From NCBI GenBank assembly GCA_027022365.1, contig JALVYU010000038.1, forward strand, positions 1 through 56,951: 56,951 bases of DNA, written 5' to 3'. This stretch comes from Desulfurococcales archaeon (GTDB lineage Archaea > Thermoproteota > Thermoprotei_A > Sulfolobales > Desulfurococcaceae). The notes beneath the pieces are model-generated. The model made no database searches and was not told the origin of the DNA. It saw only the letters and a program-made list of their open reading frames with translations. Position 1 is the first letter of the stretch. Every line of letters starts with the position of its first letter. Shown here in pieces: positions 52,138-56,951 of this stretch. A program made the translations under genes and the position numbers.

Positions 52138-52319
52138 TTGTTTCACCTCCCGTACTAATGTATTTTATTAATATATTGTTTTTCAACATGCTGAACCATT
52201 TTATTGTATTAGGGTTTAAATACTTCAGATATTATATATTACCGAGAAATATGATAATTATTTCCATCCATAAAACTTTGTTCATTATTTTTAAATAATA
52301 TAAACTTTTGGTGATCTGT

Positions 52320-53165
52320 ATGGCAACTTATAACAAGATAATGACTTCGCTAAAGATTCTAAGAGAGCTAGACAGTATACTGGATTTCTCACGATCATCT
52401 AATCAGCTTCTAATAGTGTTCTATTTGTCAAGCATAGAGGGAGAAACAAGTATTTCCGAGCTCGCCGTAAAACTGAAGCTTTCACGCAAGAGTATCTTGG
52501 ATAGTATTAGGAAGCTAGAGCGAAAAGGGCTCGTCAAGAAAATCTATAAGGAAGATGATATCTATCTTTCTCTCTCCGATAAAGGAAGGGAATATATGCG
52601 AAAACTAATGACTATCCTATCTACACGTCATGAAGCCCCAATGCCTAGCCCCGATACAGCCCTAAAGGTTATGACTAGGATCAATATTGGGCATGAACTA
52701 GTGACAGCCTACAGGATCTATAGGGCACTTATAGCTCTCGGATTCTCGGGGAAAACCCATATGAGCCTGAAGGAGCTCTCGAAGCACATGGGTTTAAGCG
52801 CGGAAAGAGCAAAGAGCTATCTGGACGCATTCAGTGCTTCTCCATCCAGGCTTTTCAGGAGAATAACAGCGCCCACTGGAGTATATTATAGGCTTGACAA
52901 GGAGGGTAAGCGCATACTTTACTACTCTCCGCACTACATCGCCTACAAGAAGTCGAAGCTCTACAGTCTCCTAGCCAATATGTTTAAAACACCCTGGCTG
53001 GACGAGATCATCGGTAAACTTGGCCTTGTTTTTGTCCCAGCGTTAATAGTTGTTTCCATTCTAGGAGGAATAATTGGAGGAGTACTTCTTGCCTCGTCAA
53101 TCCTTTCAGGGGGAGGATTGTTTTTTTCACTAATAGTGATGTTATTGTTAAGGATTAAGCCATGA
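52320..53165 (+). CDS. Membrane-anchored winged-helix regulator (ArnR-like)
   Basis: A 281-residue protein with two DNA-binding-type domains: one near residues 25-90 (TSISELAVKLKLSRKSILDS) and a second near 120-205 (HMSLKELSKHMGLSAERAKS). It ends in a hairpin of two membrane helices (VFVPALIVVSILGGIIGGVLL and LFFSLIVMLLL). In Sulfolobus, membrane-bound ArnR and ArnR1 activate the archaellin gene. This gene lies 600 nt upstream of archaellin, so the same role is inferred. ATG 52320 follows GGTGATC. A long AT-rich upstream region carries TTTAAATAATATAAA-type promoter sequence. Confidence 0.72.
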   Translation: MATYNKIMTSLKILRELDSILDFSRSSNQLLIVFYLSSIEGETSISELAVKLKLSRKSILDSIRKLERKGLVKKIYKEDDIYLSLSDKGREYMRKLMTILSTRHEAPMPSPDTALKVMTRINIGHELVTAYRIYRALIALGFSGKTHMSLKELSKHMGLSAERAKSYLDAFSASPSRLFRRITAPTGVYYRLDKEGKRILYYSPHYIAYKKSKLYSLLANMFKTPWLDEIIGKLGLVFVPALIVVSILGGIIGGVLLASSILSGGGLFFSLIVMLLLRIKP

Positions 53166-53547
53166 TCTTCTCCACATACTTCAAAACAATATTTATCAGC
53201 TTCTCGGCTAATCGCTCTGCATCTACTCTCTTGTTCAGGGTCAATAATAATATCTTCTCTCCGAACATTATGCCTAGATACTTGTTCCTAAAACCATTAC
53301 CACCCAAAATAATGTACATACCGTGGCGTTTAGGGAAAAACAGATTCTCTGCCAAGAAAACCGTCTCATCATCGATCTCGGGGGGCCAATAAGCTAGTAT
53401 ACCTTCCTCAAAACTAATTATAGCTGCTGCCTTAATCCCGACCCCATCCACAAGTACCGATAATGGTTCCCAGGGCCTGCCTATTCCGGGCATGAATTTT
53501 TCACTACCAATTTTGCTATGATTATCTATTTTTGTACTAAATATCAA
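53155..53547 (-). CDS. Hypothetical protein (roadblock/profilin-like size)
   Basis: A 130-residue soluble protein not recognised. Strand-rich segments (LSVLVDGVGIKAAAIISFEEG, YIILGGNGFRNKYLGIMFGE, ILLLTLNKRV) precede a C-terminal helix (ERLAEKLINIVLKYVEKI). The α/β order is similar to small longin or roadblock domains, without a confirming motif. TTG 53547 is favoured, behind GGTGA. It converges on the ArnR-like gene with an 11-nt overlap and faces away from archaellin. Confidence 0.55.
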   Translation of the reverse strand: MIFSTKIDNHSKIGSEKFMPGIGRPWEPLSVLVDGVGIKAAAIISFEEGILAYWPPEIDDETVFLAENLFFPKRHGMYIILGGNGFRNKYLGIMFGEKILLLTLNKRVDAERLAEKLINIVLKYVEKIMA

Positions 53548-53617
53548 TCTCCTCACCAAGATAATGTTTTTGTTTTCGTTCGGAGTTAAGGATAACTTCT
53601 TCTATCGATCAAATGCT

Positions 53618-53771: not shown

Positions 53772-54512
53772 GTGAAGAAGCCGAGGCACCACAAGAAGAA
53801 GAAAAAAGGTATTGTAGGCATTGAAGCCGCCATCGTTCTGATCGCCTTCGTGATCGTGGCTGCAGCACTAGCATTCGTAGTGCTGAACATGGGTATGTTC
53901 ACAACACAGAAAAGCAAAGAAGTGATCAGCAGGGGCCTTGAGGAATCAACCAGTGCTCTACAAGTAGCAGGAACAATCACGGCAGAAGTAGGCAGCGACG
54001 GCAAGGTCGACGCTATAGCGATACCCATACAAGTAGCGCCCGGTAGAGAAGCTGTTGATCTATCTACAAACGTGACTACAATCTACTTCCAGACACCATA
54101 CAATACCTATACCAACATTCACATCGGTGTATGGAAAGTCGTGTTTAACCCGACATATAACCTTTACCAGCTAATCTGGGTAGCAGGACCAGTTAAGCCA
54201 ACAACGACCGTATTCAACCTAACCGGGGCACCCAGCATAAAACAGATAATCACCGACCTAAACACTGCCAACCCATTGGCAGGAAACACTGTTGGTTTCA
54301 TAGTATTGTTCAACATACCGAACAATGAGAACACAACAATTCTTAAGTTCGGCGAAAAAGCCCTGGTCGTCGTACTGCTGAGCTCCACTGATGAGCTAAC
54401 GTACTACCAGCAGTTTACCGCCGAGCTAAGACCACCGGTCGGTGCTCCTCTAACAATTACGAGGAGCATGCCAGCCTCATTAACACCCAATACATTGATA
54501 GCACTATCTTAG
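53772..54512 (+). CDS. arlB: Archaellin
   Basis: This 246-residue filament subunit of the archaellum has a class III signal peptide: a very basic leader (residues 1-12, HHKKKKK) and cleavage by the prepilin peptidase after G13. The hydrophobic polymerisation helix follows (IEAAIVLIAFVIVAAALAF). The remainder is the β-rich outer domain with sequons such as NVT, NLT and NTT for N-glycans. GTG 53772 follows GGGGTGAT. A T6 run after the gene suggests it is mostly transcribed alone. Confidence 0.93.
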   Translation: MKKPRHHKKKKKGIVGIEAAIVLIAFVIVAAALAFVVLNMGMFTTQKSKEVISRGLEESTSALQVAGTITAEVGSDGKVDAIAIPIQVAPGREAVDLSTNVTTIYFQTPYNTYTNIHIGVWKVVFNPTYNLYQLIWVAGPVKPTTTVFNLTGAPSIKQIITDLNTANPLAGNTVGFIVLFNIPNNENTTILKFGEKALVVVLLSSTDELTYYQQFTAELRPPVGAPLTITRSMPASLTPNTLIALS

Positions 54513-54596: not shown

Positions 54597-55016
54597 ATGA
54601 AGACTGATAAGTACATGAACGAGTTTACAAAAGGGTTCCTGAGGGGGGCAGTCGTATCTATATTTCTACTATCAATTATAGATGCGTTTGTGCTTGTATT
54701 TTCCGTGTTTGTTTTTAATATGATAGTTCATTCATTAATACCCCCAATACCGAGAATAGTGTTAGGTCTTTTACCCCTCGTTTTAGCCATATTTGCGACT
54801 TCTAGGATTGTATATGATATAATAGATCTAAGTATAATTTCTGGCAATGTCTTAATCATGGATTTCAGCCCCGATTTTTTCGAGAAGAACCCAGAAGACT
54901 CATTGAAAAACTCGTGCCAGGCAATACATTGTTGCGGAGACACATCATCATTCCTATACTGCTTCGCTTCACCCGAAAAACCCTCATGGAACTATACAAA
55001 CAAGCCGTGGAGGTGA
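54597..55016 (+). CDS. Archaellum-locus membrane protein (possible N-terminal half of a split ArlX)
   Basis: A 139-residue protein with two strong membrane helices (AVVSIFLLSIIDAFVLVFSVFVF and IVLGLLPLVLAIFATS) and a cytoplasmic tail (DFSPDFFEKNPEDSLKN, then a Cys-containing end). It lies where crenarchaea encode ArlX, a single protein with an N-terminal membrane helix and a ring-forming domain. Here the membrane part and the soluble part seem to be separate, coupled genes. ATG 54597 follows GTGAT. The stop TGA lies inside the next gene's ribosome site. Confidence 0.6.
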   Translation: MKTDKYMNEFTKGFLRGAVVSIFLLSIIDAFVLVFSVFVFNMIVHSLIPPIPRIVLGLLPLVLAIFATSRIVYDIIDLSIISGNVLIMDFSPDFFEKNPEDSLKNSCQAIHCCGDTSSFLYCFASPEKPSWNYTNKPWR

Positions 55017-55021
55017 ATGCT

Positions 55022-55837
55022 TTGGCCGAAGCCAGTACAAGTCCTCCGCCGACGGAGATCGATGAATTAAGGAAAGAGATCGAAGAGCTCAAAAACAGCC
55101 TAGAGGAACTCAAAGAAGTCGTCGCAGAGATAAGAGCTAGTCTCTCGGATCTCCAGAACCCATTCGCTATGCTTTCAGCCCCACCACAGGAAACTATTCC
55201 CGAGACGAAGGCTCCCCTGACCCCTAGTGAACGTGAAGCCGAGGAAATGAGAGAGGGGAGAAGTGAGGCTGAAGTAAAGCCGGAGATCAAGATCCCTGTT
55301 TCCGGAGGGAGGAGAGGGTTGAGTAAGGCGGCCAGGAAGGAAATAGGAATTAAAACAAAGGAGACTATAAGCGGTGGGAAAGAGTATCTGAGCCTAGAGG
55401 ATCTCAGGGACTTGATAACCGAGATCGGGAAAGCAATCCGTGAAGAGTACAGCGAGAAAATCGTTAGGCAGTCCAAGACCATGGATGTTAGGAGAGTCAT
55501 ACGAATACTGAAAACAATATATTCGCTACGCAAGGCTTTACCTAAAGAAAGCATAGAGAACATTGTCAAGCTAGCACAGATACTCGGGCTGATCACAAGT
55601 GATGATAGGGAGGTACTAGATACTGTAATATCCCTTGTGGAGGACGCCCTTAAACAGGATCTTACTCCCGATGAACAGATTCTTGTCCTTTACATACTCA
55701 TGAAGAATCTAGGCTATGTCGACGAGAACCTTGAGGACGAGATACTCAAGATCGTGTCGGGAGTAATATTGTCGAAGAAAAAACGGAAGGAACCCGGAAA
55801 TGACGAGCTCGCAAGAGGCGTTGTCGGGGGCTCCTAG
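55022..55837 (+). CDS. Archaellum-locus coiled-coil protein (ArlX-like soluble part)
   Basis: A 271-residue soluble protein. It has an N-terminal coiled coil (TEIDELRKEIEELKNSLEEL, to about residue 50), a Pro/Glu-rich linker, and an α-helical C-terminal domain (YLSLEDLRDLITEIGKAIRE; PKESIENIVKLAQILGLI). Order and gene position match the cytosolic part of ArlX, which forms the ring around the crenarchaeal motor. TTG 55022 has GGAGGTGA at 55009-55016, which also covers the preceding gene's stop. An in-frame extension to 54914 exists but lacks a ribosome site. Confidence 0.62.
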   Translation: MAEASTSPPPTEIDELRKEIEELKNSLEELKEVVAEIRASLSDLQNPFAMLSAPPQETIPETKAPLTPSEREAEEMREGRSEAEVKPEIKIPVSGGRRGLSKAARKEIGIKTKETISGGKEYLSLEDLRDLITEIGKAIREEYSEKIVRQSKTMDVRRVIRILKTIYSLRKALPKESIENIVKLAQILGLITSDDREVLDTVISLVEDALKQDLTPDEQILVLYILMKNLGYVDENLEDEILKIVSGVILSKKKRKEPGNDELARGVVGGS

Positions 55838-55866
55838 TTTTTCCCCGATAGAGGGTGGTATATGCC

Positions 55867-56325
55867 ATGGTCTCTACGACGATATCGCAGGCACTGCTTA
55901 CTATAGTGGCGATATCATTAGCGGTGGCTCTAGCCGTAGCTGTGATGTCTCAGCTAAGCAATATTCTAAACTCAATGAGCATCGCTGTTAATCATCGCAG
56001 CGAAGCCCTCCGTATGGTCATAACTGTTACAAATGCATACTATGATCCCGTATCCCATACCTTCCACATATTCATCAAGAACACCGGAGACGTGCCTTAT
56101 AGCGACTTCAATAATATTGATGTCTATCTCGGCAATGCTAGCGGCGTCTTAGACTACTATAACATTTCCACGGCAAACATCACAGAGTACGGTCCTGAGC
56201 CTGGAGTCTGGGTTCCCGGCGAGACCATAGAGATAACGATTAACACGACGACAGCCTACTCTCCTCCCTACGAGGTAAAGATCGTGTTATCCAACGGCGT
56301 GTCGACAACCTACGTGTTCGGCTAG
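55867..56325 (+). CDS. arlG: Archaellum stator protein ArlG
   Basis: A 152-residue protein: an N-terminal archaellin-like helix (SQALLTIVAISLAVALAVAV) without a processing site, then an immunoglobulin-like β-domain with sequons NAS, NIS and NIT. ArlG caps a filament or links ArlF to the motor in the pseudo-periplasm. Gene order (after the ArlX-like gene, before a similar protein and ArlH) assigns it as ArlG rather than ArlF. ATG 55867 follows GGGTGGT. Confidence 0.8.
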   Translation: MVSTTISQALLTIVAISLAVALAVAVMSQLSNILNSMSIAVNHRSEALRMVITVTNAYYDPVSHTFHIFIKNTGDVPYSDFNNIDVYLGNASGVLDYYNISTANITEYGPEPGVWVPGETIEITINTTTAYSPPYEVKIVLSNGVSTTYVFG

Positions 56326-56345
56326 AATAAACGGTGGTGATCTCC

Positions 56346-56885
56346 TTGGGAGTAAGTACAACGATGAGCGGAGCAATAGTCTTGTTCCTGATACTGTTCG
56401 CCAGCGTCGCAGTAATCGGTAGTATGTTTGAAAAAATCACCGACCTCGCTGAGGAGATAAGGAGCAATAACGCCCTAGCCCTTAAGATGATCTATGATCA
56501 CATAGTTATAACTAATTACACAATTAACTCCCGGAAATGGGTTGGCTCAAACTTAATGGTCAACATGACCATCCTCGTCAAGAACAAGGGCCAAGACCCG
56601 ATATGGGATTTGAACTCAACGGACATATATGTCACATATCTTGAGAACACAACAGGCAACATAAGGTCGATCAGGCTTGTCTACGGCGTGAACTGGAGCA
56701 TACCAGCAATAATTCTCACAGAAAACTTCACTATACCATTTACTAAGCACCCGCTCATAGACCAAGGCGAGACAGGCGTTATCAATCTGGTCTTCTACGC
56801 CCCGATAAACACGACCTACCCTATCAGGATAACCTTCGTCTCACAGTACGGTTCAAAAGCATCGACATGGGTGCCGCTGGGGTGA
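56346..56885 (+). CDS. arlF: Archaellum stator protein ArlF
   Basis: A roughly 179-residue protein with an N-terminal helix (TMSGAIVLFLILFASVAVIGS), a short coil, and a β-sandwich domain (NLMVNMTILVKNKGQDPIWD) with many sequons. ArlF binds the S-layer and anchors the motor. It starts at TTG 56346 behind GGTGATC, or at GTG 56334. It is assigned by order, directly before ArlH; ArlF and ArlG share a fold, so a swap is possible. Confidence 0.8.
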   Translation: MGVSTTMSGAIVLFLILFASVAVIGSMFEKITDLAEEIRSNNALALKMIYDHIVITNYTINSRKWVGSNLMVNMTILVKNKGQDPIWDLNSTDIYVTYLENTTGNIRSIRLVYGVNWSIPAIILTENFTIPFTKHPLIDQGETGVINLVFYAPINTTYPIRITFVSQYGSKASTWVPLG

Positions 56886-56889
56886 GACG

Positions 56890-56951
56890 ATGAGTGAGGA
56901 GAGAGAAGTTATATCGACGGGTAACGAGGAGCTTGACTTAAAGCTTGCTGG
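56890..56951 (+). CDS. arlH: ArlH, motor KaiC-like ATPase (N-terminal fragment)
   Basis: Only 20 codons are visible before the window ends. They read MSEEREVISTGNEELDLKLA, the start of the RecA/KaiC-fold protein ArlH (ISTGNEELD followed by a Gly-rich P-loop approach). GGGGTGAG precedes the ATG. ArlI and ArlJ are expected beyond the edge. Confidence 0.85.
   Translation, partial: MSEEREVISTGNEELDLKLA

Follow-up and report, generated by a model that had tools for sequence, protein, structure and literature searches.

A conserved candidate -1 frameshift site between a membrane domain and ArlX in the archaellum gene cluster of a Desulfurococcales archaeon

The window, a 56,951-nt stretch of DNA from a Desulfurococcales archaeon, holds an archaellum (arl) gene cluster in which the arlX position is occupied by two overlapping open reading frames (ORFs) in different frames. 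We propose, with a probability of about 0.8, that a -1 frameshift at a conserved slippery heptamer yields a membrane-tethered ArlX, and that termination followed by restart yields a soluble ArlX from the same message.

Locus organisation

The arl cluster comprises, in order, an ArnR-like regulator, an archaellin, the ORF pair, two ArlF/ArlG-type proteins and an arlH-like start. The pair thus lies at the arlX position, between archaellin and ArlF/ArlG, and this order is kept in the relatives examined. The features are as follows.

52308..53165 (+), ArnR-like membrane regulator of the winged-helix type, preceding the arl cluster (NCBIfam NF041016 ArnR, E=8.9e-25)
53772..54512 (+), archaellin, arlB (PF01917, E=6.3e-27)
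54597..54872 (+), zero-frame transmembrane (TM) domain with two hydrophobic helices, N-terminal ArlX part (hydropathy; frame A constrained, frame B not)
54875..54881 (+), slippery heptamer T_TTT_TTC, core of the invariant GATTTTTTC at 54873-54881 (9 nt identical in 5/5 loci)
54881..55021 (+), -1 frame linker REEPRRLIEKLVPGNTLLRRHIIIPILLRFTRKTLMELYKQAVEVNA before the internal start (constrained; predicted helical)
54882..55016 (+), post-heptamer zero-frame tail with its stop, unshifted product (protein-level constraint absent)
55009..55016 (+), Shine-Dalgarno (SD) sequence GGAGGTGA containing the zero-frame stop TGA, 55014-55016 (5/5 loci)
55022..55024 (+), internal TTG start of soluble ArlX (TTG kept in 5/5 loci, 5-8 nt past the SD)
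55022..55837 (+), ArlX coiled coil, NPF motif and C-terminal helical domain, 271 aa (hhalign to Sulfolobaceae ArlX; AF2 helices)
55864..56325 (+), ArlF/ArlG-type stator archaellin (PF01917, E=3.2e-10; NCBIfam ArlF 34.7 bits, ArlG 33.2 bits)
56334..56885 (+), second ArlF/ArlG-type protein (PF01917, E=1.5e-7)
56890..56951 (+), putative arlH-like gene start, truncated by the contig end (sequence MSEEREVISTGNEELDLKLAG)

On the opposite strand to the archaellin gene, a conserved 134-aa protein with no family match (53155-53559, -) recurs in the genus loci that extend far enough (L026, L027, L031).

An earlier note, made from the sequence alone, had described the pair as a 139-residue and a 271-residue protein, with the stop codon of the first gene contained in the SD of the second, and both statements hold. 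ORF 1 (54597-55016) starts with ATG, and its product is hydrophobic over two stretches, residues ~10-52 and ~46-76. ORF 2 (55022-55837) starts with TTG, its frame being open upstream of this codon back to 54818, a point missed in the earlier note, so that it overlaps ORF 1 by ~200 nt in the -1 frame relative to the TM frame. The -1 offset, the long overlap, both ORFs and the SD/TTG were found in 5/5 loci of the window's genus (g1), a sample of five loci from four genomes (two loci in one genome) that comprises all loci existing there; given this recurrence, the layout is neither chance nor an assembly slip. One genome, G001, carries two archaellin-ArlX sets (C92 and C237), whose frameshift-type ArlX loci have diverged.

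Identity of the second protein

ORF 2 alone scores 17-18.2 bits against the Pfam ArlX entry (PF24151), below the curated cut-off of 28.7, and Pfam and NCBIfam searches with the single ORF proteins returned weak coiled-coil matches and ArlX below cut-off. The earlier note's suggestion of a split ArlX was borne out by HMM comparison: an order-wide profile of 21 homologues from the order matched Sulfolobaceae ArlX in hhalign with a probability of 92.8% (E=4e-7) over 164 columns spanning the coil, the PF motif and the C-terminal domain. A narrower profile gave 4.6% and no significant ArlX match, and a bridging homologue reaches 27.1 bits on PF24151. By profile and gene position, the second protein is a divergent ArlX homologue, lying outside the PF24151 entry by score. 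A single-gene ArlX elsewhere in the genome, the counter-case raised in the earlier note, was not found: a PF24151 search of the genome recovered this gene and chance-level matches, and a candidate at 57 kb of contig C26 was rejected as an unrelated protein. Neither did PF04659 (ArlC/D/E) match in this genome. The AlphaFold model of ORF 2 is all-helical, with a C-terminal bundle at a pLDDT of about 85 and a low overall mean pLDDT of 63, and PDB comparison by sequence and by fold gave no significant match. The two hydrophobic helices are encoded in the zero frame and would belong to the same chain as ArlX only if a -1 shift occurs.

Heptamer and switch of coding constraint

The coding constraint changes frame at the heptamer. 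Between the window and G001a, its most distant relative, BLOSUM sums were 106 for frame A (zero frame) and 3 for frame B (ArlX frame) upstream of the heptamer, and 20 and 99, respectively, downstream of it. These scores were compared with those from 5000 trials in which the same number of substitutions was scattered at random. Downstream, frame B was matched in 0/5000 trials for distant pairs (P=0.0004 for the window and G002), with P values of 0.25-0.61 for frame A (0.48 being the value set beside the 0/5000 of frame B); upstream, the picture was reversed in the distant pairs (0/5000 for A, 0.85 for B). Frame B was above chance already in the first 45 nt past the heptamer (P 0.001-0.04), and in the overlap its pN/pS was 0.32-0.48 vs 0.79-1.09 for frame A. 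As read from these substitution patterns, the ArlX frame is under protein-level constraint from GATTTTTTC on, including about 47 codons before the TTG, and the 44-codon zero-frame tail is unconstrained.

The nine bases of GATTTTTTC are invariant in 5/5 loci, while other invariant runs do not exceed 5 nt in about 390 nt. In the zero-frame register they read T_TTT_TTC, a canonical X_XXY_YYZ -1 heptamer; in-frame heptamers of this type are rare in the window's own ORFs (9 in 16,372 codons). In G005 and G002 a TGA stands directly before TTT TTT C in the ArlX frame, so entry into that frame must occur at or after the heptamer. The window and G005 have a GTG and TTGs in the ArlX frame from 39 nt past the heptamer start, and going by sequence alone these two may use a late normal start. 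Downstream of the heptamer no stable RNA structure was found, pseudoknot-free folds being no better than those of shuffled sequences (z 0.33 to 1.47 and -1.6 to 1.2), and an Rfam search gave no match. A downstream stimulatory structure facilitates -1 frameshifting and is not strictly required. An SD-like GGAGG lies 8-9 nt before the heptamer in genus g43 only.

Proposed mechanism

Ribosomes starting at 54597 would make the two-helix membrane domain and reach T_TTT_TTC (54875-54881), where a fraction would slip back one base, tRNA-Phe re-pairing on UUU UUU. Continuing in the ArlX frame, these would produce a tethered ArlX of 413 aa (46.5 kDa) with the junction ...SPDFF|REEPRR..., the predicted junction peptide being IVYDIIDLSIISGNVLIMDFSPDFFR and the linker running from REEPRR to AVEV. 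Unslipped ribosomes would read ...SPDFFEK (predicted zero-frame peptide IVYDIIDLSIISGNVLIMDFSPDFFEK) and then a dispensable tail of 44 codons before terminating at the TGA within GGAGGTGA. They could restart at TTG 55022, giving a soluble ArlX of 271 aa (30.3 kDa); the TTG with its SD probably serves as a start site within the one message. We infer the ribosomal nature of the slippage, its efficiency, the restart and a scaffold ring mixing tethered and free subunits. Such a mix is plausible, since rings form from a truncated soluble ArlX (PMC8978795).

Recurrence in a second family

The same design is present in family f6, in seven further loci from three genera. Their heptamers are T_TTT_TTC in two single-contig genomes (G097 and G095), C_CCT_TTC in three genomes (G135, G141 and G105) and C_CCT_TTA at the two loci of genome G172, with a -1 offset and the exact heptamer register in all seven. 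From heptamer to zero-frame stop the distance is 106-127 nt, against 139 nt in the window's genus, and the stop overlaps or abuts an SD-linked internal ATG, GTG or TTG. Frameshift loci therefore total 12, from four genera and two families and with three heptamer types; a canonical heptamer in the zero-frame register inside the ORF overlap, and a zero frame ending at an SD-linked internal start, were found in 12/12. Three of the seven f6 loci (G135, G105 and G095) lack any ATG, GTG or TTG in the ArlX frame between the heptamer and the internal start. Frame B was constrained between G135 and G141 (0/5000, pN/pS 0.16) and frame A was not (P=0.93, pN/pS 1.55); for G097 and G095, frame B gave P=0.03. 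The two G172 loci, L097 and L121, are diverged frameshift-type ArlX loci within one genome.

Other genera of the window's family (f1) had been considered as carriers of the same -1 phase; this was rejected, the nearest f1 relatives outside the genus being in +1 phase with a GTG start. Given this different phase, separate origins of the frameshift device in f1 and f6 are probable.

ArlX forms in relatives

Sulfolobaceae ArlX is a single ORF with one TM. Elsewhere in the order, the majority of families carry an ordinary pair, and conservation of the two-gene form in relatives, which the earlier note had proposed to check, was confirmed: a small two-TM ORF followed by a soluble coiled-coil/helical ArlX is widespread in the order. 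These ordinary split forms overlap by about 44 nt or less, and a normal start codon usually lies close to the junction. In other relatives two TMs and ArlX are fused in frame within one ORF, at L111 and L158 (one f6 genus) and at L112 and L113 (f5); these fusions support the frameshift reading. In seven f6 loci from four genera (L018, L104, L120, L122, L123, L125 and L127; g21, g30, g37 and g49), ArlX comes right after archaellin; an intervening TM ORF is missing, as is the Cys motif.

This motif, W-x-C-x-C-x-x-C-R, opens most split soluble ArlX proteins (L005-L017, L067-L071, L075, L088-L105) and is absent from 12/12 frameshift loci and from Sulfolobaceae; among the in-frame fusions it is present in L111 and L158 and absent in L112 and L113. 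Perhaps it is a metal site or a docking element. The distribution suggests that it docks separately made ArlX on its membrane partner and would be dispensable in one chain, a rule that is not strict, since the fusions L111 and L158 keep the motif. That a recoding switch sets the ratio of tethered to free ArlX, and evolved at least twice (f1 and f6) with the Cys motif lost there too, we regard as about an even bet.

An unusual soluble-ArlX junction was observed at seven loci of family f2 (g17 and g57): L083, L086 (= L012), L088, L089, L091, L092 and L093. These have no ATG, GTG or TTG from the opening stop to the WPCxCxxCR motif; instead, a conserved ATT-GA, 6 nt past an SD (GGGGGTGA or GGAGGTGA), overlaps the stop of the TM gene. 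Two readings fit this junction: initiation at a conserved AUU codon, or a +1 shift at AAT TGA.

Alternative explanations

The fusion could instead arise by transcriptional slippage, RNA polymerase adding a U at the T6 run in a subset of messages. The run is present in g1 and g42, and one extra U would give an identical DFFR junction; six T are, though, a short run for polymerase slippage, and g43 and g69 have CCCTTTC or CCCTTTA, which keep the exact X_XXY_YYZ register without being homopolymers. The lack of a homopolymer in CCCTTT favours the ribosome over the polymerase as the source of the slip; transcriptional slippage we consider unlikely. An unusual start, with ORF 2 beginning at a non-AUG codon just past the heptamer (e.g. 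at an ATT 27 nt downstream of the heptamer's first base) and with a neutral ORF 1 tail, has a precedent of sorts in the seven f2 loci, where the conserved ATT-GA follows a strong SD and no ATG, GTG or TTG precedes the Cys motif. Within g1, however, the ATT is ATC in one locus and in the window lacks a properly spaced SD; conserved residues begin ahead of it, the heptamer invariance would go unexplained, and no conserved counterpart exists in the f6 loci, which nevertheless retain the heptamer layout. We consider such a start very unlikely.

The earlier note had read the break as organised coupling rather than decay, and the two halves of that claim fared differently. A plain coupled pair, made up of a membrane protein (139 aa) and a TTG-initiated protein (271 aa), fits the conserved SD GGAGGTGA and TTG, and ordinary pairs are common in the order. 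Against this, the ArlX frame is constrained for ~47 codons before the TTG and the ORF 1 tail is not, and the ordinary overlap of at most about 44 nt compares with 106-139 nt from heptamer to stop here; as the whole story, ordinary coupling was rejected on the constraint upstream of the TTG and is highly improbable. The exclusion of decay stood. Although a single-base change would join the frames, sequencing error or a decaying gene is hard to reconcile with nine bases invariant across five loci of four genomes, with the same heptamer in the single-contig genomes G095 and G097, or with two parts that are both still constrained; it was rejected on the presence of the layout in 12 loci, and we give it next to no credence. 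The comparative pattern thus makes a bridging -1 frameshift the most likely account of the break, ahead of a plain coupled junction of two genes.

Comparison with known systems

Hardly any case of conserved -1 frameshifting has been documented for archaeal cellular genes, and a search of the open-access literature on the archaellum and frameshifting found no relevant report. For ArlX, a rotary-motor scaffold, the candidate site is conserved across four genera and takes three heptamer forms; it also shows that gene callers split proteins of this type. The demonstrated archaeal case is the alpha-L-fucosidase gene fucA1 of Saccharolobus solfataricus (PMC8211752), likewise a cellular crenarchaeal gene with a -1 shift at a canonical heptamer, whereas the ArlX shift is a candidate from sequence. 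The fucA1 frameshift is found in two strains, other Sulfolobales having the full-length gene (PMC8211752), in contrast to the ArlX device, whose conservation extends across two families (four genera) and which includes an internal start. A 2021 review lists haloviral and Mg-chelatase frameshift candidates, use beyond fucA1 being not known (PMC8211752). Bacterial dnaX and Mg-chelatase share the heptamer-driven -1 shift and products with and without a domain, and archaeal Mg-chelatase frameshift members have been predicted (PMC3711429). The GGAGG of g43 is an SD-like upstream element such as dnaX also has; ArlX differs from both systems in that no downstream hairpin was found, the product is a motility scaffold and the unshifted product is followed by a coupled internal start.

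Among archaellum components, ArlC/D/E of Euryarchaeota are the likely counterpart of ArlX as a cytosolic ring (PMC8978795), but they have no TM and their genes are often fused in frame. Sulfolobus ArlX (FlaX, PF24151) shares with the protein described here its place between archaellin and ArlF/G, the coiled coil, the (N/S)PF motif, the C-terminal helical domain and, provided that the -1 shift occurs, the TM anchor. Sulfolobaceae encode all of these in one frame and with one TM; here the soluble part and two TMs occupy different frames, with the heptamer joining them. If the frameshift is real, it would explain how the cytosolic ring of the motor is tied to the membrane.
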